DNA of 64,000 nucleotides from Cryphonectria parasitica EP155 (taxonomy: Eukaryota; Ascomycota; Sordariomycetes; Diaporthales; Cryphonectriaceae). The notes below the pieces were generated by a model. It had not been told where the DNA came from. It was given only the letters and a program-made list of their open reading frames with translations, and searched no databases. Positions 7,850-36,707 of this stretch are shown here, piece by piece. The stretch spans positions 5,443,172 to 5,507,171 of the forward strand of contig NW_024468910.1 in the NCBI RefSeq assembly GCF_011745365.1, in the 5' to 3' direction. How positions within the stretch are numbered: position 1 is the stretch's first letter; every line of letters starts with the position of its first letter. The position numbers were made by a program, and so were the translations under genes.

Positions 7850-10800
7850 ATGGCTGATCCAGGCCCTCCAGTCCCTATCGCCATCGTCGGCCTGTCATGC
7901 CGCCTGCCAGGCGGCGCGAACAGCCCAGAGCAGCTGTGGGAGCTGCTCGAGCGGTCGGGCGAGGCCTGGTCCCCGGTGCCAGCCGATAGGTTCAACGAGG
8001 CAGCCTTCTACCACCCGAGCGGCGACGACCCAAACGGCACCAACAACCATAGAGGCGGTCACTTCGTCGACGCAGACCTTGAGGAATTCGACCATGCCTT
8101 TTTCCGCTTATCACCACAACAGGCGGCAGCCATGGATCCGCAGCAGAGGATGCTGCTCGAGATGTCATATGAGGCTCTCGAGGATGCCGGCTGGACGCTC
8201 GAGTTGTGCGCTGGTTCCCAGATTGCCGTCTACGCGGCAAGTTTCACAGCGGACTTTGAGCGGAATCTCTACAGGGATCCCCTCAACTTGCCAGTATACT
8301 ATCTTACAGGTGTTGAAAAGGCCATACTATCAAATCGAATCTCACATTTCTTTGATTTGCATGGCCCTTCTATGACGATCGATACGGCTTGTTCTGGTGG
8401 CTTGGTGGCTGTACATCAGGCCTGCCTGAGTCTTTATGCTGGCGAGTCCGATGCAGCTATTGTTGCCGCTGCCAACTTGACAATGTAAGCATTTCTCTCT
8501 GCTTATAAGGTCTGCAGTTCTTTTTCCGCTTGGTATATAAGTAAAAGCTCTTAGATTTCTAGATGGATGGCTAGTCTTCTCTCGTCATTAGATTCTGAAG
8601 TCTCGATACTTCTTTAGTCTTCATTTTTTTACTCAGACTTTTCCAACATTGTTAGCAATTTTCCTTTTTTTTTTAAAAAAAAAAGGTTCTGATTTCCTTT
8701 ACGCTTATCGGAAATTTTTAATTTTTTTCTTTTGGGGAAAAACAAATACTTTTTATACTCTGAAACCTTCTTCCTATTTTCTCTGAAAACTTCTTGTCTC
8801 CTTAGAGATTTCTTGTTGACGCGAGATCAGGGGCCCAGACCAGCGCATTGGCATGAGCACACTCCATTTGACCAGTGGTGCCGGTCGTTGCTTTCCATTT
8901 GATAAGCGCGGTGATGGTTACGGGCGCGGAGAAGGGGGTGTCGTGCTTGTCATGAAGACTCTTGACAAGGCCCTGCGAGACCGCGATCCCATCCGGGCAG
9001 TCATCCGCAGCACGGCCGTGAACCAGGACGGCTACACACCCGCCAGTATCACGTACCCAAGTGTGAGTCATGAACTATTAAGAATTCTCAATTCGAGTGC
9101 TAGTATGTTGATGAAGTGTGTGCCATATCGGGGCATGTTTTGATGGCGCTTGCTGACCCAGAACCTTGGCTCTCAGGCAACTGCCCAGGAGCAGCTCATC
9201 CGCGAAGCATACGCAAAAGCGGGCTTGTCACCCCTGGTAAGCCACGACAGATATCACCAGAATAAGCACTCGTTATACTCTGTCATTCGATAGCTGATTT
9301 GGCAAACGAGTGTCCAGGACGTGTCTTATGTCGAGGCTCATGGGACTGGCACAAGAGCGGGTGATCTCGAGGAGCTCGCAGCCATCGCTAAGGTGTTCAC
9401 AAGTCCCGATATTGAGCGCTCAACGCCTCTTCATGTGGGCTCCATCAAGGGCAACATTGGGCATACTGAGAATACGAGTGGCCTTGCTGGTCTGGTCAAG
9501 GCCATACTTATGCTCGAGCACCTTCAAATTCCAGGTACAGCCGGCCTACGCGACCTCAAAGCCGGCCTACCCACTCAGAAGCTTGTTATTCCCAAGAAAC
9601 TCGTGCCGTGGCCGCAGGATCCGAGCAGCGAACGAGAGAAAGTGCCTCGTGTGTCTATAAACAGCTTTGGTTTCGGGGGCACAAATGCTCACGCAATACT
9701 CGAGCGTGCCCCGCACCAATGTGCTACTCTTGCGCCTTCTCTCCCCCCAAAGGCTATCCACCGTCCATTCCTCTTCACTCTCTCCGCTAATAGCCGTGAA
9801 TCCCTTCAGTCTTTGCTCAAATCTTATCACACTTGGCTGGGTCGCCCTGAGGAAGCGCTGCTACAAGATATCTCCTATACGCTATGCTGCCGTCGCTCTG
9901 CTCTGCCCTGGCGTTTCAGCTGCGTAGCCAGTGACCACGAGTCCTTTCGAGACCAAATTGAGGCTGGCTTGAAGGCTCCTGAAATACAGCCTGCCCGTAA
10001 GGCTCCTGTCGTAGTCTTTGTCTTTACAGGCCAAGGTGCTCAGTGGCTTGGCATGGCTCGCGAGCTGTTGTTGCAAGATACGCCTTCCTGTACTTTTCGC
10101 GATTCGCTCCGTGCCTCGCGGGATATGCTTCTCGACCTGGGTGCCGACTGGGACCTCGAAAAGGAGCTTCTCCGCCCATCCACGGAGGCCGCCCGACTGA
10201 ATACCGCACAGGTCTCCCAGCCAGCGACCACAGCCATACAGATTGCACTGGTTGCTCTTCTACAGAGCTTCAGCATCAAACCATGGGCCGTGGTCGGCCA
10301 CTCCAGCGGAGAGATCGCAGCAGCCTACACAGCCGGCCACTTGAGCGCACGACAGGCGCTCACGTTGGCCTACCACCGCGGCTTCATGGCGGACGCTGCA
10401 AAAGCCAAGGGTCTGGGCCCGGGGGCCATGCTATCAGTTGGTCTCGGCGAGGCCGACGCCCTGCCCTTGACAAGAGAGCTCAGAAGAGGCATCGCTAGCA
10501 TCGCTTGCGTCAACAGTCCTAGCAGTGTCACTATCTCTGGCGATGCTGACGCCGTCGACGAGGTCGTCTCACGCCTCGCAGCTACTGGCAGCCAGAACAG
10601 AAGCAGTCACACTTTCTACCGCAGGCTGATCGTTGACACTGCGTACCATTCTCATCACATGCAGGCTGTGGCTGATGACTATCGCTCAAGCCTTGCGGGC
10701 CTCAGCTGGGACGAGGAAGCACGTGCTAACCGCAAGGGAATCCTCTTCTTCTCTTCCGTGTCTGGAGATGTCAAGTCGGCCGGCTTCGGACCCGAGTACT

Positions 10801-13800
10801 GGGTCGACAACCTCGTGTCGCCGGTTCGATTCCACGATGCGATGCAGACGCTGGCAAGAACCGATTCTGGTACTCAACATACCGTCTTTCTCGAGATTGG
10901 GCCCCATTCGGCTCTCGCAGGGCCAGTCCGCCAGTGCCTCACGAATACGGAAAGGCCAAAGTTGTCTTTTGACTACTACTCAGTGCTGCAGAGGCACCTT
11001 GATGCCCTTACGAGTACACTCGGCACTGCCGGCCGTCTGTTTGAGCGAAACGTGGGTGTTAATCTAAAGGCTGTGTCAGCTTTGTCGATGAACTCGAGTA
11101 CTGGCGTCGTTCTACCAAACATGCCATCATACATCTGTGAGTAGTCTGCCTCTTTTCGTCTCTCCCTCCTGCTCTCCTCTTATTCTCCCCTCATCCACTC
11201 CCTTTGCTCCTTCTTCCCTCTTTCTCTGTCTGAAGCGGGGGCGCTGGTCATACTCCCATACATTACTGCCATGCTATGTCCCTGGTTTAGAAAGGATCAA
11301 TATTGACGATCCACTCCAGGGGACCATTCCCAGAAGCATCACTTCGAGTCGCGAATCAGCCGCGAGTACCGAATGCGCCGCGAACCGTACCACGACCTCC
11401 TAGGCGTGCGTTCCATGGACGACACGTCAATCGAACCCCGCTGGCGACACATGATCGGCCTCAACACACTGCCATGGCTCGGACATCACCTTATCGACTC
11501 ACAGCCAGTCTTTCCTGGCTCCGGCTACCTCTGCATGGTCATCGAGGCTGTCCGGCAGATCCACAGGGAACGCCACGCTGAGCATCCGCTGGAGATCATA
11601 GCGCTAAGAGATGTCTCCTTTCTGCGGGGGCTGGTGGTCCCTAACATCCAGGGGCAGCGGACCGAAGTGCAGCTGAGCTTGACGCCGCAACCGGATACGT
11701 TGCTCGCCTTCGATTTTCGGATCACGGCGGAGTGGGATGGAGAGTGGCGCGAACACTGCAGGGGAACTGTTGAAGGGAAATTGGCCACGGCAGAGTATGG
11801 CGGCGAGGGGATGGAGAGTGCTCAGTTGGGACGTCTGGCATTGGCTGACCCCAGCGATCTCTTGCTGGAGGACACATCCGTCGACACGGAAGAGCTCTAC
11901 CGTGAGCTCAGAGAGTCAGGGAATACGTACGGGGCGACGTTCGCCAGCATTCAGTCTTATATCCTGAAAGCTGATGCTTCAAGTGCAACTGCCACGGTCC
12001 GAATCCCCAACACCGCAGCTTTCATGCCAGCACAGCACCAACAGCCTCACCTCATCCACCCAGCAACACTCGATACCGTGCTCCACACAAGCCTGCCCAT
12101 GGCCTTGCAGCATCTAGGCCGGGCGTCGATCATGCCGGTTCATATCCAAGAGATCCTGCTGTGCGCATCGCCTGCGACGCCGCGCGAGCCGGGCTCCACG
12201 CTGGACGTGTTGACGGCGATGAGGTCCAGCCGATTTCACACCGCCGTTTCCGACATCTCTGTCACGGCACATGGTGAGGCGGTGCTGTCGGCCTCAGGGA
12301 TCGAGTTGCGAAGCCTCGCATCTCGATCAGACCGGGGCGTTGAGGACGCGGGCGGCTCTGGTATCTGTCACGAGCTCGACTGGCGCCCGGATGTGTCTTT
12401 CCTCCGTATCCAGGACTTCAAGACGGCTTCGAAGCTGACAGAACTGTTTAGTCACGTCCAGTACAAGAAGAAAAGCCCATCAGTGATTGAATTTGGCAGC
12501 AGCCGGGCCGAGCTGTCCCTTACCTTTCTGAATTGTCTCGGCGGCGACGAAAGCACCTGGCCCTCGCATGAATACGTGGGCGAGACTCCCGAGTCGCTCG
12601 AGAGAGTGCGTAGCCAGCTCGCTGGATACTCTGTGCGCTTCCGTACACTGGCTCCTGGGCTAGACATCTCTGAACAAGGGTTGGAGATGCATTCTTATGA
12701 TGTGGTTCTCATCTCGACGCCGCAGTCGTTAGAATGGGCTCATCTTCTCGCCAAGCCAGATGGGATTGTGATTGTGGAACTGAGAACAAGAATTTCAGAT
12801 GAAGACCTGGCCACACGCTTTCATGCAGCTAATCTTGTTACCCAGCTGTCAGTCCACGCCGATGCTCTTGACAGCTTGGTCGTTGTCGCACGGCCCAGGG
12901 CCACGGGCCAAGAGTTGCTGAAGTGGCCACTAGGGATTAGACTCCTCACCCGCCGCCACGACGATGCAGAGCAGAAATGGTTGGTCGATCTAGCGGGCCA
13001 GTTGCGTGAGCGTTTTGGTCCGGTATCACAGGAGAGCCTCCATGCGAGGACAACATGGCCCACAGCCAACTCTGACGAGCAGAGCACCTCACAGTGCTTT
13101 GTTGTGGTTGAGGATCCGATGAAACCCATCCTCTCAGATCCAGACTGCTTCGGTGCTGTTGTCTCCTTGTTAAAGCAGCCGGGACGTACTATCATCTGGC
13201 TCAGCCCAGACGAGCCTCTGCCCATGCATCAAATCACCGGCGTGGCACGCACGGCTCACGCCGAGCTCGAAATGCTGCGCCTCACGACCCTCCACGTCGC
13301 ACCGGACCTGTTGTACGCGGACCACGAGAGCATATGCAGCCGGTTGCTTGATGTGCTGGCCCGCGTCCTTGTCTCTGAGGGCGCTGATCAGGAGCGAGAG
13401 TACCGGGTGAACAAGGCTGGGACAGTTCTGGTGCCACGCCTTCTTCCTGAATATTCACTTAACCGGGCTGTTCGCGAAGACGCCACAGCACTCACTGGCG
13501 TTGCGTCTCGGCGGTTCCTCGACGATTCCCGGACCTTTGCCATCCTGTCGGGAGGCGATGCAGCTCCAACTCTACATGCGCCTCATGCAACTCAGTCACA
13601 TGTCTTCCAAGAAATCGAAAGGAGGCCGCTTCAACTTGCCGACAACCAGGTCGAATTCGAGACGGAAGCTTTTGCCTTGTCTGAAGACGGGCTCAGGGCA
13701 TCTCACCACAACACATACGCAGGCATCATCACCCGAACAGGCGCCACAGTCCATGGCTTGGCCCCAGGAGACCGTATCGTCGCCGTCGGGGAAAGGATCG

Positions 13801-16800
13801 GTGCCAACCGGCTGGTCGTTCCGCGCACAAAGGCCGGACGATTGCCGCCAGGCATTTCCCCATCATTGGGGTCAACCATGATCCTCCACGCCATAGCGGC
13901 GTCCCACGCTCTAAGACAACTAGCACGTTTGCCACGCAAAGGAAATGTCCTGATCCACGGCGCACTCACCGCTGTGGGTAGGGCAACAGTGGCCGTCGCC
14001 CGCCACTTGGAGGCAATAGTCAGCGTCAGCGCCGCCAGCTCTCAGGAAGCTCGCCGTATGGTGGATGAGCTCGGCGTCGCAGTCGACCGCGTCGTGGTGA
14101 TCCACCGGTCGAGATCACCCAAGAATGTCTCTGTCAGAAGCGTTGATATCATTGTACAGGCCCAAGAGGGCCAGGTTCCTACCCAGATCCTGGGCCACCT
14201 GAGGCCCTTTGGTTCCGTCGCGGTCCTTGGATCCCAAGACTCTCGTCCGAAGAAGCAGGAAGATCATTCACGCTGGGATATTCCACAAAACTTTACGGTA
14301 TTCTTCTGTAACGTCCTAGAGCTCCTGCGCGAGTGTCCAGAGGTCCTAGATTCCGACCTTGTGGCACAGGCTGCCGCCGCCCTGTGCTATCTGCCCGTCA
14401 CAGGCTTCGATTACTGCGTGCGCCCCGTCAAACACATGGCCAAAGCTCTCCGCCTCATCGAGGCAGGCACTTGTGCCACAGTTGCTGTAACAGCAGATGC
14501 AGACGCAGTCATACCGGTGGCGATGTGTCACGAGACGCAGGCTTCGGCCTGGAGCACAAGAGGCGCATCTTACCTTGTCTCCGGGGGGCTGGGCGACTTG
14601 GGTCGACGGCTGTTGTTTTTGATGGCTCGGCGTGGTGCAAAGCACCTGATAACACTTTCAAGGAGGTCTATCGGCGTCGAAGACCACAGCCGGCTACAGG
14701 CTGAGCTCAGGAACATCAGCAAAGACTGCAACCTGTATTGCGTGACTTGCGATATCACTGACTATGACAGCCTTGGACAGGCCGCTGCTCGTATAAACCA
14801 GCTCGGAATACCTCCCGTCAGAGGTGTCATTCAGTCCGCCGCTGTGCTTCAGGTGCGTTTCTACTAGAGCCTCTAAGCGATACAGGCCGCACGCATACCC
14901 CAAGCTGTACGCTGACCCGGATACTGCAGGACCTGACACTCGACTCGATGACGTACGAGGACTTCCTGCTGGCCACCTGCGTCAAGGTCCAGGGCACGAT
15001 CGCGCTTGAGAGGACCTTCGAGTCGCCCCACTTGGATTTCTTCATCATGCTGTCCTCGGCGGTCAACATCCTCGGCTCCAGCGGACAGGCTAACTACAAC
15101 GCCGGTAACAGTGTCCAGGATGCTCTGGCCTATGCCCGGCGGGGACGGAGATGTCGGTACATGTCACTGAGTCCCGGGTGGATCGAAGATGCTGCGTTCA
15201 CTGTCGATGTCGAATCTCGAATAAAGTAAGTCGATTCTCTCTCATCATACTGCCAGATGCCCTGCCCAGTCGCCTCCTGATCCCGAGAGTGTTGTAGCCT
15301 CTCTATTGTGTGAGATGCTGCATGCTCCGATGAGAACATCCTGCCTGGGCGTATTGCACATGGCGGTCTCATACGACGTGGCGCTCTTATGAAAAGAAGA
15401 ATAGAGCATTCCGTGCTGATATCAAGCGCTGCAGTGGTCTTCGCCGAGCCGGTCTCAGGCCCATCTCCCATGACGAGCTATCCCGCTATCTAGACCACGC
15501 CCTCAGCGCCGCTGACGGCGAACCGCGCCCGACACAAGCCGTCATCGGGTTCGACGCCGCCTCCCTCTCGACGGCTACCACCCACAACGGCACCCTGCAC
15601 TCTCCCCTATTCAGCCACGTCCGTGGTCCGCCTCCGTCCACAGCGGCCGGGCAAATATCCGTATCCTCTCCTACCGACCCGGCGCCCTCCTTCACACAGG
15701 CGCTCGCCAGTGGCGACCCGAGCCTGGCCGCGGACATCGCCGCCGCGGCCGTGGCGGGCCAGCTCGCGCGCCTGATCTCTGTGGACGCCAGGCGCATCGA
15801 TGTCCACAAGACCTCGGTGCTAGACCTGGGCGTGGACTCGCTCATCTCCATCGAGCTGCGCAACTGGGTCATGCGGGAGTTTGATGCGACTCTGCAGTCG
15901 TCAGAGATCCTGATGGAGCAGACCATGCATGGACTGGCTGAGAGGATTGTGGCCCGCACCGCGTTGGCGGCGGCGGCGTCTCCGTCTACAGGTCTGGAGA
16001 GCACCCAGGACACCGACGAGAAGAGGTCATTTGTTACGACGCTGTCTGGCACCACATCACCCTCGACAAAGTTGGCCGACGGAAAGTCACAGCAGGATGA
16101 TCCACCGGTGCAGCTGCCAAGTCTCCCTCGACCATCGCTGCAAGATCTGCTGAGCTCCTTCGCCGCATCTAGAGCAGCTGTCGACTCCCCAGAAGAACAA
16201 GCCATCACCAACGACGCCATACGCCAGCTCATCAACGAGCACGGCGAGTCCATCCAGCGTGCTCTGCATGATACCCCAGAAAACCTCCTCGACGAGGCCT
16301 ACGAGCGACAGATCTACCTTGCGCGCCGTGAGCCCCTTCAGGACTACAGCACCTTCTACCTGGCCCACCCGGTCGCCACCACACCCCACACTCAGGTCGA
16401 CCGCGCCACGCTTCTGACCACCGCAGCCACAAGCTTCGCACGTCGCCTTGCCCTCGGCGAGCTACCACCCGACGAGCTGCACGGCGCGCCGCTGGACCCT
16501 GAGGCTCGCCGCTGGCTGTTCCACGCCACCCGACGGCCTGGCCTCGAGGTGGACCACATGGAGCGCCACCCTCCGAGCTACAGCATCGTCGTCCTCCGGC
16601 GCGGACACGCCTTTCAGATGACCTTGCCTGGGGTCGAAGAAGCGCTGCAGCCCTCTGCTGTCCGAGCAGCCTACGAGGCTATCATTGACGCTTCGAACGA
16701 GCCCACGCCGGCCGTCGGCGCACTCACTGCAGACGACCGCCCGTCATGGGCGCGCGCCCGCGCCCAGCTCGAGCTCGACTCGACCCGGGCAGACGCTCTG

Positions 16801-17973
16801 GCGGCCATCGACAGGTGCGCCTTTGTCGTCTGCCTGGATGACGAGGCGCCGTCGACGAGCGGAGAGCGGCATATGCAGTTCCTGCTAAACGGCCCCAAGG
16901 CGCACCTGTCGAATCGGTGGCTAGACAAGCCGCTGCAGCTGGTCGTGGCCGCCAATGGCTGCTCAGCTGGTGTCTATGAGCATTCCAAGCTCGACGGCAT
17001 GGATGCTCGCCTGCTACACCACCATCTGACAGAGTCTGTTCTCGCCCACCAGACTCATGAGGAGGTCCAGCCCGACCTCGCCGGCCCAGAACCTCAGCCA
17101 GCACATTGCCAGGTCCGTGAGCTGGCCTGGACGCCAACCGATCAGACCCTTCTCCAGCAGATCGACCGCATCCGCCTCCGCGGCCCGTCCTCCTACGGCA
17201 CCGTCGACCACCGCAGCGTCGAGATCGAGGCCATGGGCTTCGAACGCCTCCGCACCCACCGCGCCGCGCCCAATGCGACGGCACACCTGGCCGCGCTGCT
17301 GGCGGTGCGCATCGTCGACAGCTGCGACGGCAGCCGTGAGGTGCTGCGCCCGGCGTGGGAGATCGTCTCGCTGGCTCCCTTCTCATGCGGGCGGATCGAC
17401 TGGGTGCAGACCGTTACACCGGCAGTGAGGGCTTTTCTCGAGGCGGCGGTGACGACGACAACTTCTGGTGCCAGAGATGCAATGCTGGGTGTTCATCCCC
17501 GGGTGGCACAGCTGCGGGCCTTGTTCTATGCCGCCGCCGCTGGGCACACCCGCTTGATATCCACTGCTGCGAGCGGGCGCGGGTACGTGAAGCATATGTA
17601 CTCGCTCCTCGCAGCCACGAGCGGCCCATCCACCAGCAAGCACGGCGACGACGACGACAACGGTGACGCCCAACTTCTCGCCCTGTTCCGCTCCCAGGCC
17701 TGGCAAGCGACGCGCCGCGGGGGCCCGGGCCAGGACCTCAAGATCGGCTTCATGGCTGCCGAGGGGGAGGAGGGCAGCAGTAATAACGAGTGGGACGAGG
17801 GCGGCTTCCTCATGCAGGGTGAGCGCGGCGTCTACATCCACTGCAACGTGGACCCGCACCGGGCCCGGTTCGCTGTCTCGGCCCGGCTTGGTTATGCAGC
17901 TCGCATCTGCGAGGCTCTGGAGACTGCTGCAGCTATCATTTCATCTGTTCTTAATCGTGACGACCCATCTTGA
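7850..17973 (+). CDS. Highly reducing PKS with C-terminal carnitine-acyltransferase-like domain, 3037 aa
   Basis: Exons are 7850-8484, 8831-9062, 9177-9236, 9318-11136, 11320-14852, 14930-15225 and 15435-17973; all phases fit. KS has Cys181 (DTACSGG), His317 (EAHGTGT) and His358 (KGNIGHTE). AT has Ser638 in GHSSG. DH has His972 and Asp1167 (HPATLDTVL). A short methyltransferase remnant (about 1274-1440) lacks the glycine-rich SAM loop. ER spans about 1690-1950 with a weakened cofactor motif (HGALTAVG). KR follows (SGGLGDLG; Tyr in QANYNAG). ACP Ser2327 is in LGVDSL. The last 600 residues are a choline/carnitine-acyltransferase fold with catalytic His2708 (VYEHSKLDG). In characterised fungal relatives such as Trichoderma virens Tv6-931, this domain moves the finished chain to an alcohol acceptor. 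The product is expected to be a reduced linear chain; its identity is unknown. Confidence 0.95.
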
Positions 17974-20646: not shown

Positions 20647-21525
20647 ATGACGACCAAATCGTATGTTATCTCCCCGGGCATGGGATTCTCGTTCCGCCGA
20701 GGACCTCCTATCGCCCTAGGCAACGTCTTCGAGGACCCCCTGAAGCTGGACGAGATCCCTATCTCCTTCCGGGACGCCAAAACTCTGCCGCCCAAAGTTG
20801 ACCCTCCGGCGACGGAAGGGCGCAGGGTCATCATCAAGGACTACAGCTCTCATTCCGGGCTCCAGGCCTGGGTCGAATATCTGAGCACATTCGGGGCCCG
20901 GCTCGGCGCCGAGCAGGCCAAGAATACCCTCGTATCATACGTTGTTGAGAGCCTCGAAACGGATGCGTTCACTGGAGAGGGTCTGCGCGCATACTTTACG
21001 AAAAGAGAGCGGGACGAGGAGGATCTGCGCCGATGGCTACGCAAGGGGCCGGTATACATGGTAACCGGGATCAAGTATTCAACCGGTCTCGAGTGGAGCG
21101 TTCTGCTCGCTAAGAAGAGTTCCGCAGACGGGAAGATTCAAGCAAAGCTGAAGGAAGATCTTCAGGCCGGCATTCAAGCCTGGGCTGCGAGCGACTGGAC
21201 TAACCTCCAGAGCGGCAGCGTCCCCGTGGAGGCCGTCTTTGCTTACCAAGTGCACCGCCTCTGGTACCGAGGCCTCCTCACAAAAACGCTGGAGTCGAAG
21301 CTGAACCGTGCAGGCGTGGGGCTGAGCGATGAGCCCGATGAGGAGGAGGAGGAGCAGGAGGAGGAGGAGGAGGAGGAAGAGGCAGCGGCGGCGGATAGAG
21401 AAGAAGCAGCAGCAGCAGAGATACCCGAGATCGAGTGCGAGCTTTTCAAGGACTTTGAAGATGTGGCGAAGGAGAGAGGGATTTCGGTTTTGGCCTCAGA
21501 CGAGGAATTTGTTTATGTAGTTTGA
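20647..21525 (+). CDS. Gasdermin-like pore-forming cell-death protein (HET-Q1/RCD-1 type), 292 aa
   Basis: Single exon. The N-terminal 220 residues have the layout of the gasdermin pore-forming domain: an early strand/turn (PPIALGNVFEDP), then strand-rich sequence. A helix-rich middle with alternating charged residues (about 105-133) leads to a strand GPVYMVTGIKY (134-144), a variable loop, and a strand starting VPVEAVFAYQVHRL (192-205). This order of elements matches the animal and fungal families, though overall identity is low. Residues 229-257 are a Glu/Ala run encoded by a GAG microsatellite, followed by a 35-residue acidic tail. In fungal gasdermins a short C-terminal tail is removed by a partner protease to release membrane killing activity. 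The neighbour on the opposite strand, 47 bp away, is a subtilisin-domain protein, as in the HET-Q1/HET-Q2 pair. The family call rests on pattern and context, not on a search. Confidence 0.72.
   Translation: MTTKSYVISPGMGFSFRRGPPIALGNVFEDPLKLDEIPISFRDAKTLPPKVDPPATEGRRVIIKDYSSHSGLQAWVEYLSTFGARLGAEQAKNTLVSYVVESLETDAFTGEGLRAYFTKRERDEEDLRRWLRKGPVYMVTGIKYSTGLEWSVLLAKKSSADGKIQAKLKEDLQAGIQAWAASDWTNLQSGSVPVEAVFAYQVHRLWYRGLLTKTLESKLNRAGVGLSDEPDEEEEEQEEEEEEEEAAAADREEAAAAEIPEIECELFKDFEDVAKERGISVLASDEEFVYVV
21340..21420 (+). repeat. GAG/GCA trinucleotide run inside the gasdermin-like gene
   Basis: A run of GAG/GAA codons followed by GCA/GCG codons encodes the acidic and Ala-rich linker between the pore-forming part and the tail. 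Such runs change length easily, so the hinge probably varies between strains without breaking the frame. Confidence 0.8.
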
Positions 21526-21572
21526 GCTGAAAAGGAGTTATTGAGAGAGTCTAGCTAGCTCAGGTACGAAAT

Positions 21573-24500
21573 CTACTCAATCCTCTCGACGTCCTCCGCT
21601 GTGGTCCGCGGGAGCAGGTTCCGGACAGAATGCACGAGGGAGGCGCACCACTTTTTCTCCATCATGATCCCTTTCGGCTTATAACTACAGAAGAGCTGGG
21701 TGGGTTCTACATAGCGTTCTTTGCCCATCCCCTCAGTTGTCGCGGAGAAGAGCCTCACCATGCCTTCTAGTTCGAAAAGCATCTCGACGCTTTGGAAATC
21801 GATCTCGTCGCTTCCCATAGCTAGCTTCCAGGACGCGTACTGCAGGTACGTAGCTGCGATGGCGGCCATGATGGGTGCAGCGGCGGAGCAGCCCGATATC
21901 GTGAGCGGCTTCACCACGATCGAGTTCTCGTTCCATTGGTGGGTGCAGGGGACCTTGTACCCTAGCGTGCCGAAGGCGTGGCTGTCGTGGATAGTGGGAT
22001 TGTAGTAGTTATGAAAAGCCCCGCTCGCATTGGTCCCGCGCACCGAGACGACGCGGTGTCGATACGAAGCTGGGAATCTTTCTGGTTCCCTCTTCCCGAT
22101 GTTATTCGCAGCGGCGAAGAAGATTAGCTTCTTATTCTTTCCCTCCCGGCCCAGAGCTTCGTCGATGGCATCTTCTATGCAGGTTGGCCGATTCAGATAC
22201 CCGAAGGAGAGCGAGACTATATCAGCCCCCCATCTGGCGGCGGCCAAAATACCCTAGGACACAGTATATTCAACGTTAGCCTCTGCTGCAATGCAACAGG
22301 GGATTCCTCCATCCGCGGCACAAATTGAGACGACGAGAACACTTGCCTCTGCGACAGCCTGCTGGGCCTTGGGTGACTCGAAGTCGGATGTTGTTCTAGC
22401 GACTCTGGCGATGAAAAGCTCGACGCGGGGGAGCAGCATCAGGAGAAGCGTGGTTATCTTGGTTCCATGGCGATTTGGATCCTCATCGATGGGACCGTCG
22501 GGGTGGTCGCCCAAGCAATCTTTCCAGTGTTCGCCCGCGACGCGGTCTTTATCGCCGTGGTGCCACTCCTTGTCGAAGAAGCCGGTATCCAAGCTGCATC
22601 CCGTATCGAGTATAGCTAGTTTTATGGGTCTGGGTGGCACTTTCGGTGCTTCTAGGAAGCGGAATACCAGCTCTTCGATCTCCACAAAGTCTTTCAGCCA
22701 ACTCGCCGCATCCTTGACGTCTGCGCTTTTGCTGTTCGTAATCGCGTTATTAGCTGACCTCTGCCGATGTTATGTGATTTCGTTGACTCACGTCATGCCG
22801 GCCAGATAGTCAAGATATTTGGTGTATTTGTACTTTATCCGCCCTTTCCTGGCAGTCCTCTCTACCGCTGTATCAGTTTCCTGGACAACCTTGGTCACAG
22901 CTCGGGATGGACTGTCGGAAGCGTGCTCCTCTCTTTGGGATGCGGCTGTATCGACTGCTCCGCGGCTCTCAGGTGGTAGACTAGTCCCCTGTGGGCTAAT
23001 CTTGTCCAAGACAGCCTCGGATTCTTCGCTATGGTTCACCTCTGCAGCGGCCGGAGACACATGGCTTGGGGTATTCGTCTTCGTGGCCGTATCTGCTGCT
23101 GTTGGAGCTGCATCGAGGCGCGAGTCGACTGACTTGGGCACCGTCCTTGTGCGGACAGTAGAGCCATTCGCCAGATTGGAATCAGATTCTTGCTGCCGAG
23201 TTGGCCGCTTAAGAGAACCGATGGGTGCTGAGAGAGGTGATATCGCTGGTGTAGAGATGGGCACAATTGCCTGTGGGAGTGCGATTGGAACGAGGACTTC
23301 TTGGAAGGTCAAGGTATCCAGTTTGTCGGGGCTGATATTCTCCGTCCTTTGGTCACTGAGAGAGTTTTCTCGTATTAGTTGCTCTTCGAGAGGGCTTATC
23401 ACGGTCTCGTAGAATGATTCACATTCTTCGAACTCTCCAGGCAGCGAATTAGTCCCCATATCGAAGCAGGCGTTGATGGCATCTACTACGAGCCCGAAAT
23501 TCTCTTCGTCCTTCCATTCCTCTAGAGTATCATCGATATCGAAGATGATGTTCCACAAGTCCTCCTTCGCTATGGCGCTGCCATCATCCGGCAGCTTTGT
23601 CGGATAGACAGTCTGGGTGAATAATTCGAACAGCAAGACACCCAGACCAACTCTTGCCGGCCGGCTGAGATCAAAGTCCATCCGCGGGAGGGGTTTTTTG
23701 CCCTCGAGGTCTTCCGTCCCAGGCGGGGAGAGCTGGCTGGGAACAAATGGCAGAAATGGGATGAGCAAGAGCCCGTCTGGGGTGCAGATAAACTGCACCA
23801 TGTCCGCGCCTAAGCGATGAGGCATCCACGGACCCCCGTAAAGGTGGAGAAACGATGTCGCCAGGTGGATAGCCAGTTGCGTGAGGTACCTGAAGGACAG
23901 CTTCGGACCGCCACTTAGTGTTTCCAATAGATGATTCAGAGTGACGATTGTCGGTGAAAAGAGGCTCTGCGTCCCGAGTCGCACTCGCTTGTTGGCTCTG
24001 TCTTCTACGAGGCTGCCCTCCTGGGCAAACAAGGTTGCCCGACGGACAGGGACCCCTGCCAGAAAGTTGAAGGAAGAACATATCGAGTCCAAGGTTTTCC
24101 TTGCAGCCTTTCTTTGGAACCGGTCGACGTTCCCTTCGGCTAATACTGGCACTTTGACCTGGGTGTCGCACCATCGACGCTCCATCGACTCGGGAGTGCT
24201 GATAAGCATGTCGAAGACGATGGTCGCGTCCCTCCCCTCCGAGAAGCCGCGGTGGTTCGCCATGAAGAGCAGGCTATGATGCGGCCGAGAGCAAGCGCAT
24301 TTCGACTTGAGTGCCTTCTCGAGCGCACGGTAGAGCGTGGTAGCAAGATCGTAAACGCTATGCGAAGGTCGTTGGTTCGAGGAGCGTCTCGGAAGCATAT
24401 GTTTCAGCTCCGAGATCCAGCCGTCGGTCGTCTCGATCCAGGCGCTGTGGATCCTCTCCTCGAAATGGGGCAGGAGAGCAACCGGGTCATCATGGTCACG

Positions 24501-24872
24501 GAGGGCCGCGAGACCCGGGAACGCCACCTTAGGGAACTGAGAGGAGGATGTCAGTCCGCAAGATATCCGAATTAGGGGATGGAGAGAACTCACCTTGGCT
24601 TGGGTTTTGTCCGCTATCAGAGAATTCAGGGCCTTGGAGATGCTGGTAAGGGTGTTCCGGCAGCCCGTCTCCGACTTGAGGTGCTTGGTCCCAAAATGCG
24701 GCCGCAAGCTCTCGATGGCATACATCAAGAGAGTGATGTTGGATTTGAGACGCTTAGGAAACTCCCATGATTCGCCCTGCCTCTGAGCTTCGACTGCCGA
24801 GGCTTCGGCTGCGGCCTCGAAGACAGGTAGCACGTCCGCGAGCCGATCGAGAAGGTTCTTGGACGTCTCCAT
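21573..24872 (-). CDS. DUF7580-like domain fused to a subtilisin (S8) protease, HET-Q2-like, 1029 aa
   Basis: Exons on the minus strand are 24594-24872, 22792-24536, 22347-22731 and 21573-22253. Intron 1 (57 bp) is in frame and stop-free, so it might be retained. Intron 2 is 60 bp. Intron 3 (93 bp) is of the GC-AG type with a CTAAC branch site. The first ~570 residues are helical and include a fungal DUF7580-like, kinase-resembling segment (ATSFLHLYGGPWMPHRL; RVGLGVLLFELF). A Ser/Thr/Pro-rich linker follows. The S8 domain (about 710-940) has Asp717 (AILDTGCS), His763 (NRHGTK), oxyanion Asn853 (FFAAANN) and Ser926 (ISGCSAAAP), so it looks active. It is convergent with the gasdermin-like gene. 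By analogy with HET-Q2 it should cut the acidic tail of that protein after sensing a non-self partner; that role is inferred. Confidence 0.87.
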
Positions 24873-25288
24873 GGAGAGAAGCAGTCAAGACTACACCACA
24901 TATAATAAGCAATCGCATGCCGCGCCAGATCCCTTGCAGATCGCGCTTGCTGTCGGCGCTGAATGAAGAATTGCGCATTTCCCCATCGCCTGCGCCTGAC
25001 CTCCCAGTTCAGCTCAGTACGGTTGCTCAGCCCGCCACGTGACATACAGTAAGTCTGCATGCTTTAACTGCTTCGGGCAATCACCAGAACGACTCCTCTT
25101 TCCATCAGCCGCTCGGCAATAATTCCACCGGCAGTCCGCAACGTCTCGTCATCGACGCCTCGTGCAGCAATTTACATCGTCGCTTCTTTCGCCTCGCGCT
25201 CGCCCCGTCTGATCTGGTCTGAGCTGGCCGCCCCCCTGGGTGCTTGGTTGTTCACTGTATCGTGCCTCGATGGTTTGGCGTCATACCC
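24873..25288. promoter_or_regulatory. Bidirectional promoter between protease and kinase-like genes
   Basis: A 416-bp spacer between two divergent start codons, GC-balanced, with no repeats. The sharing of one short spacer suggests that the two genes may respond together. Confidence 0.45.
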
Positions 25289-28200
25289 ATGGAAAAGGAG
25301 TTGGACGTCCGAGCATGGACGCTGAGGTGCCTCGCCGCCCTGCAGCAATGTGTGCCCCGGCTCGGAGGACACGGCCTCCAGATGGCACAATCTCTGTGCA
25401 AGAGGTTCGACAGCTGGATAAGCGGCATCGGTGTGCTTGCGGAATATCATGTTTCTCTGGATTATCGTCTACGAGAAGCTCCGAGGCTCGCCGGAGCCTT
25501 GCTGGACATGCTGCAGATCCTTGAACTTCAGATCACTCGCGGTTAGTCTTCCTTTTCCGGCCGGAGCCAGTCTCAGCGTAATTTGTGGCTGACCACTTGC
25601 ACGCCCAGTAAGCAAGGGGGCTGAGGCCTATGCTCTAGACGAGCCGGACAAACCCGCCGCCGATTACCAGCCGCTCCATGAACTGGACAGTATGAACAAT
25701 ACCATCGGATGGCTCCATAATTTCTCATACATAGTCAGGGGTTCTGGCGTCAGAGACCCTCTGTCTCGCGCTGCGAGATTTAAACTGAAAAAGGAAGAGA
25801 GGGAGGCGGTCGATGCACTCGAAAGCGCCGTGCGCGACATTTTAGACAGATTTCCCCTCTGCAGCAGCTTAGCTGACCGCATAGCGAATGCTGTGGTTCT
25901 CCGTCGAAAATATTTTCTGCACTGTCGCGCACACCAGGAGAGACTCTCACGTCGGCTGGAAGAATCCCACCACCAAGAGGAGCCTGGGATGTCGGAGCAG
26001 GCAGAAGAGCCAGATTCGGAACCCCAGCCACGCGAAGACGCCCAGTCTCCCCAAGCTGCGGCGGGCAGCTCTGGCAATCCGATATCAGCTAGAAACGTAT
26101 CGTCCACCCACGCAGATTCGAAGACCGAAGTAACTGACGTGCTGGAAGACGGCGCTTACGTGGATGATGCAGCACCCCAGCCGCCGCCAACTGATGCGTC
26201 CAGCTGGCTAGGCTACACTGGGGCGGTCGAAATCCCCCGAGCACCAGACATCGAGGGTTCGAAGGAGTACCGATGCCCGTACTGCTGTCTGACGCTACCG
26301 GCCGACGTTTTCACCGATGATGAGAGGTGGCGGCGACATATCGTAAAGGATCTGTGGCCCTATGTTTGTGTTCACGAAGACTGCCCATTCCCGGAGGAGC
26401 TCTTCAGCTCTTCCAGGGCGTGGCGCGGGCACTTACGCAAGCCTCACAAGTCTGAGTGGGTATGCCCTCTGCACCCTGATACCGGAGCCAACATGTCTGG
26501 AGCAGAGCAAGGGGAAGACCTGGCCGGGGTCTTCCGCAGCGAGGAGGCTTTCCAGGCACATATGGACACTCATCACGTCGGTGCTTTCTCTGAGAAGCAG
26601 ATCAATGCTCTGAAGCGCCGAAGTCATCGAACATTGCGAGCTGTAGTATCATGTCCATTCTGCGATCTCGAGGATCGGCGGGGGCCTGGGGAGACGCAGC
26701 ATCTTCCGGATGGCGTCAACATCTATCAGCACATCGGAGAGCATCTACTGGCCTTGGCTCTCATGTCGTTGCCACCGAGAGACGACTTGGCCGAGGACGA
26801 AAACGACCGGGTCGACCTCGAAGGGGCCAGCGATTTCAAGAGGGCTCTTGCGCAGCTATCTACTTACAATCCTCTGGATCAACTCTCCCTCCAGGGTTCC
26901 ATCGATCACCTTGCTGATCCATCCAAGGATGATGAGGAGTTTGGTCCAGGGCAGCCTATTGAGGATCCGACAGCCAACGCTTTCTCAGAGTTAGCTTTGT
27001 TAGCAACCACTGATAGCGAGCTTGCTCAGGAAGCACCAGCATTAGGAGCCGACGAGACCCCGGCGTCTACAATTGCTCCGCATAGTCCTCAGTGGTTAGA
27101 TGAAGACAACCAATCGGATGAGGAGGATCAGCACGACCTCAAGAAGAGTATCCTCGAGAGACTAGTCCCCAGCGCGCTTGACAATCTAGAGTTCTTGCCT
27201 GCGGGACTTATCGACAAACTTGTCTCTTATGAGGTAGTCACTCGTCATCTGGGATTTGACGACCTGTCTCATAGCTATGCCGAACGGCAGCTATACCAGG
27301 GTTCTAGTCCCCTTGCTGCTGCCCCGGAATCCCAGACTCTCCCCGAGAGAATCGAAGGCTCGTATCGTAAAAGACAGCTTGCGACAAGTACAAATCGGTT
27401 CACGAAGCAGAACTTTTCTCTCGCCTCTCTGGCCGAAGCCATGCAGCAGCCAGTCGAGAATGGAGGAATTCAATTACAGAACCGCCGATGGCATCTACGC
27501 CTGTACATGAATTGCTTCATCGGGTCGGACATGACTACCTGGCTTCTCGAAAACTTCGTAGACTTGGAAGATCGAAGAGAGGCAGAGGCTTTAGGCAACC
27601 GCCTGATGGTCCCGGAGGATGACGAGCCAGAAGGCGAGGGGAACGAGGCGACCAAGAAAGCCAAGAAAGAGAGCGATGGCCTCTTCATACATGTCGAAAG
27701 GCGGCATCAGTTCAGAGATGGGAACTACTACTACCAATTCAGCAGCGAATATGCTAAGCCAAACCCAGCGGGCTGGTTCACCAAGACGAAGAAAGCCATG
27801 GTTGTGCCATCGACGTCAGAGCAACAGGAGCTCGTTGGCTATGTCATCTATGAAGCCAAAAAATTATTCGCCACATGTGTCCTCGCGGGCCTTGGAGGTA
27901 AGAGCTTGCACAGAGCAATGTCTCAGTTCAGGCAGCTCGGTTTCAATGATTTATCGCTGCCCATCACCGACGAGATCATGCCCAGGATTCCCTTCTTTGG
28001 ATCTAAGATGTCCGAATACACGTGGCCGTGGGACAGCTCAAGCATTCTCAATTTCTGCAAGCAGCAGTGGGTATTTTTGGCACCCATCTTTCCGTCCGTC
28101 ACATACGAGCTAGATCTACAACCTGGCTACATACTGCCTTTTACATTTATCAGCGATATTTTGAATGACGGTACAAGCTCTATTCTGTATCAGGCAACCA

Positions 28201-31200
28201 TTCATCCTGCCCATTGCCGATATAATAGTCCCACGGTAAGCCGCAAACAATCTCCGACCTTTGTGTTTTCTCACAACTGACTGAACCAAAAAGGCTGCCG
28301 ATGGAAGCCTGAAGGTGGCGTTGAAAGAGATAAAACGTCGCCGCACCGGCGATGCTCAGCTGGCAATGTCGTTGGAACCCGACTGGCAACGAAGCCTCGC
28401 CGCACATCGGCAGGCTAGAAGCTTCAACCATCCGAACATCATTCGCCCCCTGGCTGCAATTGTGAGAAACCCCACCGCATACTTGATGTATGAGTGGGCA
28501 GACGGTGGAAATCTCCGAGACTACTGGCGTAGTAACAGAAGACCCGACCTCACCCCGAGGTTCATCAAGCTCATGGTAGAACAACTTCGAGGCCTTGCTG
28601 ATGCTCTCGAAACCCTCCACAATTCTGAAGGGGGCTCCTACCGACATGGAGATATAAAGCCGGAGAATATCCTCCGTCTCAGAGGCGAGGGTCTGGCCGA
28701 GGCCCAAGCTGATTTAGGGGTTCTGAAACTGTCTGGATTCGGCATTGCCAGATATCACGAAGAAGTAACCGCAGTGCGACATTCTGCTACTACCACGATG
28801 AGTAGCCCTAGAATGTACGAAGCCCCGGGGGCCGCCACTAGCTTCAATCAGCCAAGGTCTAGGCGGTATGATATCTGGTCTATGGGCTGTGTCATCCTTG
28901 AGTTTATCGCCTGGGCCTTGTATGGCCACGATGGCCTGGAAGTAATGGATTCCCGGATTGCTGGAGATTTCGGTAGACCGAGTCCCCTCTATGTTATCGA
29001 CAGGACGGGATTTGCCAACACTGCCAGACTCCACCCAGAAGTGAATACCATCATGAATGTCATAGCAGCCGACAGGGAGTGCCGAGGTCACACCGCCCTC
29101 GGAGATCTGCTTCGCCTGGTCAGAGACAGGCTTTTGGTAGTTAACCTAAGCTTGCAGCAGTCACTTCTCTCCGCAAGCAAATCTGAACAACTCCCTTCTA
29201 TAATTATCAGCGATCCTACTGGTCCTTCCGAGCGGCAGTCTGCCCCGGATTTCGAAGCTGTGCCGCCGGACAATGGAATCGCTCGAGCCGATGCCGGAGA
29301 ACTACGAGATGCTCTGGAGACAATCATTCGCCGAGGGAATGTAAGCGAAAACTACTGGTTCACCAGGACAAGTCGAGCCGGCACCAGCTTGTCCTTGGGA
29401 GTAGGTCCAGAACAGCTCCCAACGTGGTCAGTTAGCGAGAGCCTTCGCTCGGCTCCATCAGGAGGGAAAAGACCGCAGGCCTCGACAATTTCTCAAGGCG
29501 GTATTCCGGAGTTCACGTCTAGTGAAGACGTTGACGAACATCTAGACGACGGCTTAGAGCATCGACAAAGAGACCTCAGAGATCAGTTGTTCTCGGCACT
29601 TGTGACAACGAGGTCTGGAGAGGATCGGTTCCTACCAAATGGTCTACTTACCTCCCTAATCACCGAGAGTCGTGTGAGGAATGAGCTCTCTATATCTATA
29701 AAGCGTTACCAATCCGCTTTCAACATCCCCCAGCTCGCGAGGACTATATGTGAAGGCAACGCAGGGCGGGCTCCTCTCGAAATACATGCAGACCAGCGTG
29801 GGTTTCCATCCTTCCGCAGGGTGTTTGCCACGCTAGCTATGATCGATAAAACGAACGAGATTCTTGAGTTCATTACACACGATGTTCGGGACTCCCACCT
29901 TCCTCTAACCAGGCTGACGCAGTCTCTGGACTCCCAGGACGGAGAATTTGTTCTTGGAGACCGTGGAACCGCCCTTGAATTCACTCGGAAATGGGGTCCT
30001 GTAGCTATAGAACATTTCGAAAGGTTGCAGTGGGCAACGCTCTCTCCATTCTTTAGCAAAAGCGAAATGCGCAGTCAGACGAACCATTACGCTCTACAGG
30101 ACCAAATTATACTCCCTTTTGTCAAGCAAGACTTGTTCCGGCGAACCGCTTTGGAGGAAACGATGGGAGGTCACAGCGTTGTATTCAAGGTCTATATCCA
30201 TCCGGACCACCATAACTTCGGAGATGGTTCTCAGGTACTGAAATCCCCCGCTTACCCATGTTCAATATGAGATACACGTATACCGAGGTAAAAATGCTAA
30301 CATGGCTGACGCAGAAGTTTATGCCATTTGCGATCAAGCAATTGCTGACTGCAAACAAAGAGGCCTTCGAAAAAGAAGTATCAGTGCTTCGGAGATTCAG
30401 CCACGATGCCCACCCGCATCTGTTATCACTCTTAGCGACATATCAGCAGTCGGAAAAATTCAATATCATCCTCCCATGGGCTACCGCTGATTTGGAGGAA
30501 TACTGGCGCACAACCAATCCCCGGCCTCGTTTCGAGCAGGCTACAGTGACTTGGGTCGCCGAACAGTGCTATGGAATCGCCAATGGCCTAGTTCGGATCC
30601 ATCGCTACGCGGAGAGTGACTACTCCTCTGTGTACAAAGACGATCAATATGTATTCGGGCATCATGGAAACGTCATACCGCAAAATATTCTATGGTTCGC
30701 TGCCACCGAGTCCGGCAAGATCGGTGGCACACTTAAGCTGTCTAACTTTGGGACGACTGGGTGGGCGGCCGATGCGACGGAGACGTTAGTAGTCTCCCCC
30801 ACTTATCGTGCACCCGAGTCGGACCAAAGAGGCTTCCGAATTAGCCGAGCATACGACATGTGGTCCCTGGGCTGTTTGTATCTGGAGTTCGTGACCTGGC
30901 TGCTGGGAGGCTGGGAAATGGTCCAGCAGTTTGCAAAGTTGAGAATGTCTGTCGATGCAACGTGGTATGAAATGCAAATCGACACTTTCTTCGACCTCGT
31001 CAAGAGTGATGATGGGCACGAGATGGGAGCTCGTGTCAAACCTGCGGTGACTAAGGTTTGTCAAGTATTCAATCTTGGTATGGATGAGCCATTACTAACG
31101 TAAACATGTATAGTTCATCGAGCAGCTCCACGGGCACACTTTCTGCTCTGACTTTGTGCACGATTTCCTGGACATCATACAGCATCGCCTACTAGTGGTA

Positions 31201-34901: not shown

Positions 34902-36707
34902 CTATCCAATCTTCCACTCCTTGTATAGCACTTTGACATGTTCTGCTTCTACTCCGCCTGCATACTGTCTTGACCATACTCCTTCCCGGCACTGTCTCCC
35001 TCCCACCAGTACAGCAGATGTTCCCTCCAGGATCGTAAGCAGATGTCGCCCGGGTTTTACCCAACCACCTGGGCAGCGTACTGACCATTCCTCGCCGGTT
35101 GCCATATTACGCACCACGGCGGAATGCTCACCCTTCAAAGCCACCACTTCCACCTCGGCAGCCTGCACCACCAACTCGCCGTGTACCCCTACTTCCACCG
35201 GCGGACCTCTAGTTTCTATCCCGTTGATCAGGTCCCTGAAACTCTTGTTCTGCCATCCCTTGCCGTGATCTGCTCGCACGGTATTGCCAGACATAATTCC
35301 AGCACCCAGTATTCCCTTGGCCGCTACCTCGTCCATGACCTCGCCCTCCGTCTTTTTGTAGTCGACCACTATCTCCATTCCGCGTACGACAAGCGCCCGC
35401 GTCGCAAAGATTCTGTCCAGTGGGATGCTGCACTGCCGCGTCGCAGCCAATCGCCATATTCGCAGCGGAGGATATACGCGGGCTTTTGCTCTGGCTGCAC
35501 AAACAAATGGTCTGGTGCTCGGCAACAACGTCTTGTTAATGTTGGTAAGACTTGACGTGGTGCAAGTAACGATCCTGCCGTTCGCAGCGGCCACTGTGGT
35601 CCCGACCTGTACCGTCCTCCTTCTCGACAATTCTGCCTCCTCAAAGCCTCCAACAGCAAGGAGACTGCAGAGGTTCGTCGTTCCATGTTCGGAACAGACA
35701 CAGACGTTGTGAGCTAGCATTGCTTCTTGCAACGTCCACATCCTCGAGTTCCACTTGCTTCCCTTAACTACCTGCGCGAGGCTCCACATCTGCTCCGTCT
35801 GCTCTGGAGCAAGTAGGACGTTGGCCGGTAAGACCACGGATGGTCGGAACTCAGGCACGTATGCCAATACGAGGGAGGCCCCGGTGTAGTATTCGGCAAA
35901 TCTGGCCACCTCCTCGGCCTTCTCGACCTCGTCGTCTTGCTTGATGCAAAGCTGATCAACCCAAAATCTTTCCACCACTCCCGTCAAAAGTTTCCTGAGC
36001 GTCGACAGCATAGAATCCAGGTTGCCACTAACGTCGGCCCAACGATAAGACACGGCTGCATATTCACCTTCTTGACCGGGCGTCGAAACTTCCAGCTGCC
36101 CTGTGCGGACGTCGATTGTCATCTTGGGCAACTTTGATCGCCGCAGGACGAGACACTCCCGCGTCGTCAGATCGAGTTCCAACTTGTCTGTGACTAACAT
36201 TCCGCGCGGAGGTGGACTAGTCCGTCGAAAAAGCTCCCATCTTTCCTGGTTCGTTCTTATCACCAGCCAGCCTGCCAAAACGCGAGTACCCGCCTTCGCA
36301 GTCCACACTCCCGTCTGGTGACATTCCTGTGCCAGCTGCTCGTCCATCTCCCCTTGGTCCTGGTCAATCGTGCGGTTATTCATAACCAATAGTCTCATGG
36401 CGCTGCCGACCCACACCGTCGTCTGCACATGATCGAGCGCTGCCATTGTGTTCAGATGCTCATCCCACTGGCGTACTCCAACAACTTCCTTGAAGGCCTC
36501 GATTGCCTGCTTCGACTCGTATGGAAGCGTCTTCAACCCAGCGGCCTGGTTCTCCCCGTCCGCTAATACCTGACAAAATTTGAGCTTTGACGCCGGGCTC
36601 AGAGCCTCGCAAACACGGTGGATCCCGAGAGTGAGGCTGGCCACGTGTTCGTGGCTTCTGCACTCGCTGTTGCACTCCGAGCTCTCCATCAGCGGATTCT
36701 CATACAT
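34902..36707 (-). CDS. HET-domain (heterokaryon incompatibility) protein, 601 aa
   Basis: Single exon; ATG at 36707 is the first Met in frame. The N-terminal 190 residues are helical and unassigned. The HET domain (about 215-370) shows its usual blocks: EYAAVSYRW, then RFWVDQLCIKQDDEVEKAE with the LCI-x-Q pattern, EYYTGASLVLAYV, and SRMWTLQEAMLA. The C-terminal 220 residues are hydrophobic/basic, as in many HET proteins. HET domains resemble TIR domains and trigger cell death when a non-self partner is sensed. The gene lies beside LTR debris, and its third positions remain GC-rich, so it has escaped RIP. The partner is unknown. Confidence 0.88.
   Translation of the reverse strand: MYENPLMESSECNSECRSHEHVASLTLGIHRVCEALSPASKLKFCQVLADGENQAAGLKTLPYESKQAIEAFKEVVGVRQWDEHLNTMAALDHVQTTVWVGSAMRLLVMNNRTIDQDQGEMDEQLAQECHQTGVWTAKAGTRVLAGWLVIRTNQERWELFRRTSPPPRGMLVTDKLELDLTTRECLVLRRSKLPKMTIDVRTGQLEVSTPGQEGEYAAVSYRWADVSGNLDSMLSTLRKLLTGVVERFWVDQLCIKQDDEVEKAEEVARFAEYYTGASLVLAYVPEFRPSVVLPANVLLAPEQTEQMWSLAQVVKGSKWNSRMWTLQEAMLAHNVCVCSEHGTTNLCSLLAVGGFEEAELSRRRTVQVGTTVAAANGRIVTCTTSSLTNINKTLLPSTRPFVCAARAKARVYPPLRIWRLAATRQCSIPLDRIFATRALVVRGMEIVVDYKKTEGEVMDEVAAKGILGAGIMSGNTVRADHGKGWQNKSFRDLINGIETRGPPVEVGVHGELVVQAAEVEVVALKGEHSAVVRNMATGEEWSVRCPGGWVKPGRHLLTILEGTSAVLVGGRQCREGVWSRQYAGGVEAEHVKVLYKEWKIG

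Follow-up and report, generated by a model that had tools for sequence, protein, structure and literature searches.

A probable gasdermin gene beside a DUF7580-subtilase gene in a fungal genome, and a candidate head-to-head partner of the subtilase gene

The 64,000-nt stretch of Cryphonectria parasitica EP155 DNA analysed here (hereafter the window; contig C2:5443172-5507171 of the 43.8-Mb assembly) carries a convergent pair of genes, one encoding a gasdermin-like protein (gene A) and the other a protease (gene B), with 47 bp between their stop codons (21526-21572). We consider it likely that this locus is a fungal gasdermin cell-death unit, with gene A as the pore former and gene B as a HET-Q2-like (Q2L) sensor-protease. 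Very probably, gene A encodes a fungal gasdermin and gene B the sensor-protease that acts on it, because a relative of gene A on contig C6 resembles RCD-1 and HET-Q1 and likewise lies beside a subtilase gene with DUF7580-like sequence. All results refer to one genome, and function is read from sequence throughout. The two genes and their parts are as follows.

20647..21525, + strand: gene A, gasdermin-like protein of 292 aa, an uninterrupted open reading frame (ORF) without intron
20647..21273, + strand: core of gene A, residues 1-209, the proposed pore-forming part
21274..21522, + strand: acidic tail of gene A, residues 210-292, the putative inhibitory part
21340..21382, + strand: (GAG)14 trinucleotide repeat, a microsatellite encoding part of the tail
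21573..24872, - strand: gene B, DUF7580-subtilase of 1029 aa, with its ATG at 24872 and its stop codon ending at 21573
24872-24594, 24536-22792, 22731-22347 and 22253-21573, - strand: exons of gene B in the splice model
24593-24537, - strand: intron 1 of gene B, 57 nt, GT-AG
22791-22732, - strand: intron 2 of gene B, 60 nt, GT-AG
22346-22254, - strand: intron 3 (the last) of gene B, 93 nt, GC-AG, donor GCAAGT
23376..24368, - strand: DUF7580 (PF24476) domain of gene B, E 4.3e-20 and 8.9e-20
21828..22625, - strand: Peptidase_S8 domain of gene B, interrupted by the intron 22346-22254

A preliminary description of this DNA had given the same coordinates, protein sizes and 47-bp gap, all of which are correct, and its proposal that a gasdermin-like gene adjoins a subtilase with a DUF7580 N-terminal part is supported, with a diverged second copy of the arrangement on contig C6. 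It had also seen a gasdermin order of elements in gene A, which is invisible when gene A is searched alone and gains its support through the C6 paralogue. A search of the genome with gene A returned four matches besides itself, of which C6:1373243-1373509 aligned with residues 126-213 (E 0.0068), one on contig C3 with residues 190-257, mostly the acidic tail (E 0.0036), and two others with the acidic stretch (E 0.07 and 0.28). Searching back with the C6 protein, we found gene A as the top non-self match (E 0.0067), and the first 215 residues of the two proteins aligned with 21.1 bits, the best of 2000 shuffles reaching 6.6 (a score was returned for 1447 of the 2000). The C6 protein is itself a clear gasdermin, matching RCD-1-1 (8jyz, E 3e-6), RCD-1-2 (E 7e-5) and the HET-Q1 pore (9uv9, E 0.005) in the PDB, and a joint profile of gene A and the C6 protein matches RCD-1 and HET-Q1 at E about 0.002. 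The acidic tail noted earlier is borne out: the last 83 residues hold 31 Asp/Glu and 7 Lys/Arg, and the first 209 hold 28 Lys/Arg and 25 Asp/Glu, the boundary between them having been placed by us after a conserved WYRG/RYRG block. This C-terminal part is short and is not the long inhibitory domain of metazoans; because the (GAG)14 repeat encodes part of it, its length may vary between strains.

The C6 gasdermin gene also has a comparable neighbour. An S8 match (Pfam E 6e-24) lies 1 kb from the gasdermin match, and the ORF directly upstream of the S8 ORF on the same strand is DUF7580-like, although below the cut-off (E 1.2e-4):

L030 1392-5690 (contig C6): DUF7580-like/S8 gene with a tandem gasdermin gene, on the basis of profile matches

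The 43.8 Mb contain 20 places with S8 matches, some of them pieces of one gene and one of them the window, and by our arithmetic the chance that one of these would fall so near the C6 gasdermin match is about one in a thousand. Thus, the pairing of a gasdermin with a DUF7580-S8 protease appears to be more than coincidence, since contig C6 carries a second, strongly diverged copy of the combination. Scanning 66 sequences from the genome with the gasdermin profile matched the window and C6 genes only. Besides the window, the wider surroundings of five S8 places were inspected, and the remaining places were covered by the whole-genome gasdermin searches and a scan of 1.5-kb flanks.

Several other candidates were rejected. 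As gasdermins, C3:768597, C1:6898866 and C9:2534198 were discarded, their matches lying mostly or wholly on the acidic tail of gene A, as was C5:3836913, a match with E 0.34, an internal stop and no sensible frame by eye. As further gasdermin-protease pairs, the S8 genes at C6:1593642 and C3:130526 were dismissed, no gasdermin-profile match being found in the corresponding sequences L031 and L032; the S8 proteins there (L031 3343-4683 and L032 2263-3698) look intracellular, and the neighbouring ORFs are repeat-like by eye. The S8 genes at C8:672140 and C5:246870 (L033 and L034) were set aside as, by eye, a different, secreted kind of serine protease.

The splicing of gene B is a model built on the DNA alone, in which three introns give exactly 1029 aa. 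A profile check of the N-terminal part confirmed the DUF7580 domain that had been proposed for it, at E 4.3e-20 and with 73 bits against a curated cut-off of 27 (residues 169-499 of the first ORF before splicing). At the other end, Peptidase_S8 aligns with the last 354 aa of the spliced protein from position 4 to position 259 of the 288-position profile (E 7.2e-15), and gene B has Asp717, His763 and Ser926, which we take to be the catalytic residues, together with Asn853/854 at what is presumably the oxyanion position. Residues 501-690 are enriched in Ser, Thr, Pro and Ala (43%, against 27% elsewhere), for which the earlier term 'Ser/Pro-rich' linker is fair but loose. Residues 1-93, encoded by the first exon, had no Pfam match up to E 10. 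No NACHT or NB-ARC match was found by Pfam in the scanned ORFs of gene B or of its other neighbour, gene C (see below), up to E 1 or 10, the scan having covered individual ORFs, not whole spliced proteins.

The DUF7580 domain of gene B is probably derived from a kinase C-lobe and catalytically dead, a view that we hold with moderate confidence. In its relatives on contigs C8 (L004) and C3 (L003), the matches to DUF7580 and to protein-kinase profiles overlap, the kinase matches of the C3 relative being below cut-off. A five-row DUF7580 profile found B-Raf as its best PDB match (E 0.0015) and MLKL at E 0.008, among the best 60 of 92 matches with E up to 1, and a three-row profile (window, C1 and C6) found no kinase. 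A comparison of the DUF7580 profile with that of the gene C and C4 kinases reached E 0.58 when three rows were used and E 0.018, at a probability of only 2.5%, when five were used. When gene B (WMPHRLGADMVQF) is aligned with the C8 relative (WTHKGLRSENIMF), neither has an Asp at what we take to be the catalytic HRD-loop position. The earlier label 'kinase-like' has indirect support at most, some of the profile tests going against it, and the domain looks catalytically dead.

We propose the following order of events for the gasdermin unit. Gene A would be held inactive by its acidic C-terminal tail, and the helical and DUF7580 part of gene B would silence the subtilase until a trigger arrives. 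The trigger would be sensed through this N-terminal part, possibly by DUF7580 itself, and the subtilase would then remove the tail of gene A. The freed basic core may assemble in the membrane and form pores, and the cell would lyse; the setting could be allorecognition or antiviral or anti-parasite defence. Cleavage followed by pore formation is the order described for HET-Q1/HET-Q2 as well as for fungal gasdermins clustered with proteases (PMC10989679, PMC12881547, PMC10197012). A third gene, gene C, probably acts as a functional partner of gene B. It lies head to head with gene B and was absent from the preliminary description.

24873..25288, no strand: shared 5' region between genes B and C, 416 bp
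25289..31103 (approximate extent), + strand: gene C, head to head with gene B
26265..26474, + strand: C2H2-like region of gene C, a Cys/His pattern with a weak Pfam zinc-finger match
27366..27800, + strand: IML1-type DEP segment of gene C, Pfam E 5e-20
28417..28911, + strand: first kinase-like domain of gene C, E 1.4e-18, motifs HGD and GFG
30324..30896, + strand: second kinase-like domain of gene C, E 2e-13, motifs HGN and NFG

Gene C encodes an N-terminal domain, the C2H2-like region, the DEP domain and the two kinase-like domains in this order; its first intron is at 25542-25608, and the later junctions and the 3' end are approximate. Both kinase-like domains look degenerate because their motifs read HGD...GFG and HGN...NFG, and the linker-kinase order recurs on contig C4 (L038). 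In the C2H2-like region, Cys35, Cys40, His56 and His61 (alignment numbering) are invariant in all four rows. When the genome was searched with segments of gene C and with the relative on C1, at least nine places gave zinc-finger or N-terminal matches, on C1, C2 (the window), C4, C5, C6 and C7 and three on C9, the weakest with E 0.07.

Our view of gene C as a probable partner of gene B is drawn from recurrence at three loci. A relative of gene C stands head to head with a DUF7580-type gene in the window, on C1 and on C6, with gaps of 416, 395 (425 from an alternative ATG) and 355 bp, so that such a partner is found beside three of the five DUF7580-like loci (four from a genome profile search, and C6 with its match below cut-off). 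The N-terminal parts of these three relatives are homologous, with alignment scores of 92 for window-C1 (maximum of 2000 shuffles, 49), 71 for window-C6 (maximum 45) and, narrowly, 63 for C6-C1 (maximum 58). The recurrence may reflect selection or descent from one ancestral pair, both of which are compatible with the one genome at hand.

Descent is the basis of the strongest alternative, to which we give only slightly less than an even chance: gene C may be an unrelated neighbour with no role in gasdermin control, its head-to-head layout having been inherited from a single ancestral arrangement. The relatives of gene C at C4:3804683, C7 and C9 have no adjoining DUF7580 gene (ORFs by eye and a profile scan), nor, in a profile scan only, has the weak match at C5:2945978; conversely, none of the nine gene C match places lies near the DUF7580-like loci on C3 and C8, and the loci could be old duplicates. 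This is countered by the close divergent spacing, which has been kept at three loci although the proteins are only ~22-25% identical.

The DEP segment suggests what gene C might do if it does act with gene B. SEACIT/GATOR1 restrains TORC1. IML1 belongs to SEACIT/GATOR1 (PMC8534245), and the best PDB match of the gene C DEP is yeast IML1 (E 7e-17). The genome's own IML1 is on contig C3 (L037; 8adl, E 9e-103; DEPDC5_CTD, E 2e-15), and the DEP of gene C is identical to it in 100 of 179 columns (56%). In the 129 codons aligned, the encoded residue is shared at 89, and the three codon positions agree by 76, 84 and 43%; so many residues kept with so few third positions mark the copy as old and its protein sequence as conserved. 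In a whole-genome search with gene C, the DEP segment occurred elsewhere only in IML1, and a scan of pieces of the relatives on C1 and C6 gave no DEP match, which fits a variable bait slot and equally fits no bait role. A copy of a housekeeping domain within a receptor-like protein is what characterizes an integrated decoy, and the gene C DEP would be such a copy if gene C is a receptor.

On this basis one can picture a three-gene switch, in which gene C would be the sensor and gene B the executor, the IML1-like DEP serving as bait for viruses or parasites that attack SEACIT/TORC1; tampering with the bait would release gene B, which would fire the gasdermin, and this reading extends that of a gasdermin unit rather than opposing it. 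The conserved head-to-head spacing, N-terminal homology above every shuffle in all three pairs and the age and constraint of the DEP copy speak for it, and integrated decoys, such as a CHK-2 kinase, have been proposed for NOD-like receptors (NLRs) of Sordariales (PMC12258605). Nevertheless, we regard the bait as unlikely: the DEP is confined, among the sequences scanned, to gene C and IML1, it may serve membrane or complex localization, the ORFs scanned contain no nucleotide-binding domain, the co-regulation of genes B and C is an assumption, the evidence comes from a single genome, and the C1 locus has the layout but neither a gasdermin match in the stretches examined nor an S8 match.

The C1 locus bears on a still wider reading:

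L002 434-2217 (contig C1): DUF7580 protein, head to head with the C2H2-TPR gene L039 781-2844

At its N-terminus, the C1 DUF7580 protein has a hydrophobic helix (mean hydropathy of the best 19-mer, 1.93), where no Pfam match exceeds the cut-off; there is no gasdermin-profile match nearby and no S8 match on contig C1. The C1 genes may be a version of the window's putative receptor pair that is connected to a different death output. Generalized, this would make the locus a three-gene pyroptosis-like module in which gene C, with its captured IML1 DEP, guards SEACIT/TORC1 and releases gene B, and in which a DUF7580/C2H2 chassis has differing death outputs, being wired to a gasdermin in the window and on C6 and to a hydrophobic-helix DUF7580 protein on C1; we judge the whole of this reading to be distinctly unlikely.

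Returning to genes A and B as a gasdermin and its sensor-protease, a number of observations weigh against this assignment. Gene A alone, in a phmmer search of the PDB up to E 10, returned seven sequences and no gasdermin, the alignments displayed falling on the acidic stretch, and it has no Pfam family above cut-off. The score of the joint profile is partly, perhaps mainly, carried by the C6 row, so that the gasdermin membership of gene A hangs on a single intermediate, and no cleavage site was identified. The two pairs also differ in layout, that of the window being convergent (47 bp) and that on C6 tandem (441 bp between the stop codon of the protease gene and the start of the gasdermin gene). 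On C6, nothing but position links the DUF7580-like ORF to the S8 ORF; splicing at the strong donor of the protease gene's first intron would create a stop codon, and this gene may not be intact. The contrary reading, that gene A is a fast-evolving acidic protein lying by chance beside a subtilase gene and that its likeness to the C6 protein arose by convergence or is too slight to indicate a fold, can point to the lack of a direct match to any solved gasdermin or Pfam family and to a genome match of only E 0.007 over ~90 residues, but it is very unlikely in view of core homology above all scored shuffles, reciprocal best matches in 43.8 Mb and the position of both genes beside S8 genes with DUF7580-type sequence.

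The window as a whole contains intron-bearing genes, including HET-domain and polyketide synthase-type genes, and the contig ends 20.5 kb beyond it. A HET-domain gene at 34902-36707 (Pfam E 4e-13) lies ~3.8 kb beyond the point where gene C is estimated to end and is a further gene of cell-death type in the neighbourhood of genes A, B and C. On the other side, polyketide synthase-like ORFs (by eye) and a carnitine acyltransferase domain (Pfam E 3e-84) occupy 1012-17973, which is probably a secondary-metabolite cluster. From 38000 to 64000 the GC content drops to 28-39% and TpA/ApT rises to 0.94-1.06, resembling repeat-induced point (RIP)-type mutation.

The pair of genes A and B belongs to a known gasdermin/S8 type, and the three-gene layout with an IML1-type DEP would be new if it is functional. 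The fused sensor domain, which the preliminary description had put forward as a variant, is not new: a 2025 review states that the protease domains of fungal gasdermin activators are often fused to repeats or 'other predicted kinase-like domains', and it already mentions two- and three-gene death clusters in general (PMC12881547). A literature search for 'DUF7580', with most subscription papers outside its reach, found no paper, and searches for gasdermin with C2H2, kinase-like, integrated decoy, DEP and IML1, again with subscription papers mostly outside, gave, among the titles listed, none with a partner like gene C. The stimuli of the sensors that control fungal gasdermins are called a major open question in that review (PMC12881547). 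If gene C partners gene B, the IML1-type DEP is a concrete and testable candidate for a guarded target, the TORC1 regulator SEACIT, and divergently oriented sensor and executor genes can operate upstream of the gasdermin in a fungal death unit. Should gene C be unrelated, the locus would still show cleanly how a full-length sensor-protease is encoded next to its gasdermin.

Comparison with known systems places the locus as follows. The integrated-decoy NLRs of Sordariales resemble gene C in having a housekeeping domain copied into a receptor-like protein, and head-to-head pairs exist among them, although rarely (13 of 225 two-NLR clusters; PMC12258605); genes B and C differ from them in showing no nucleotide-binding domain in the ORFs scanned and in an output made up of a protease and a gasdermin. 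Among fungal gasdermin genes, ~80% cluster with protease genes and ~63% with S8 genes (PMC10197012, PMC12881547). The Q2L sensor-proteases are like gene B in being multidomain proteins that end in S8 and are encoded next to a gasdermin gene, with kinase-like fusions mentioned (PMC12881547, PMC10197012); the titles and passages covered in this literature mention neither DUF7580 by name nor a divergent partner like gene C. RCD-1 of Neurospora crassa is matched directly by the C6 paralogue, in both RCD-1-1 and RCD-1-2, and by gene A through it, but RCD-1 is controlled by the meeting of two allelic variants and not by cleavage (PMC12881547), whereas gene A adjoins a protease gene and its product ends in an acidic tail. 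The likeness to HET-Q1/HET-Q2 of Podospora anserina, suggested from the outset, holds for the gasdermin (278 aa in HET-Q1, 292 aa in gene A), for control by an S8 protease and for a short C-terminal part, which in HET-Q1 is ~5 kDa and is lost on cleavage (PMC10989679, PMC12881547); the tail of gene A, of ~80 residues and built in part by the GAG repeat, differs from that of HET-Q1. The protease is where the likeness gives way, as HET-Q2 has 388 aa (PMC10989679) and gene B 1029 aa with DUF7580 and a linker, and HET-Q2 acts on HET-Q1 upon fusion of different strains, whereas genes A and B are neighbours within a single genome. In the model of one review, het-Q1/het-Q2 arose when a sensor turned constitutively active (PMC10197012); because of this model and because HET-Q2 has only 388 aa, the full-length gene B resembles such a sensor more than it does HET-Q2.

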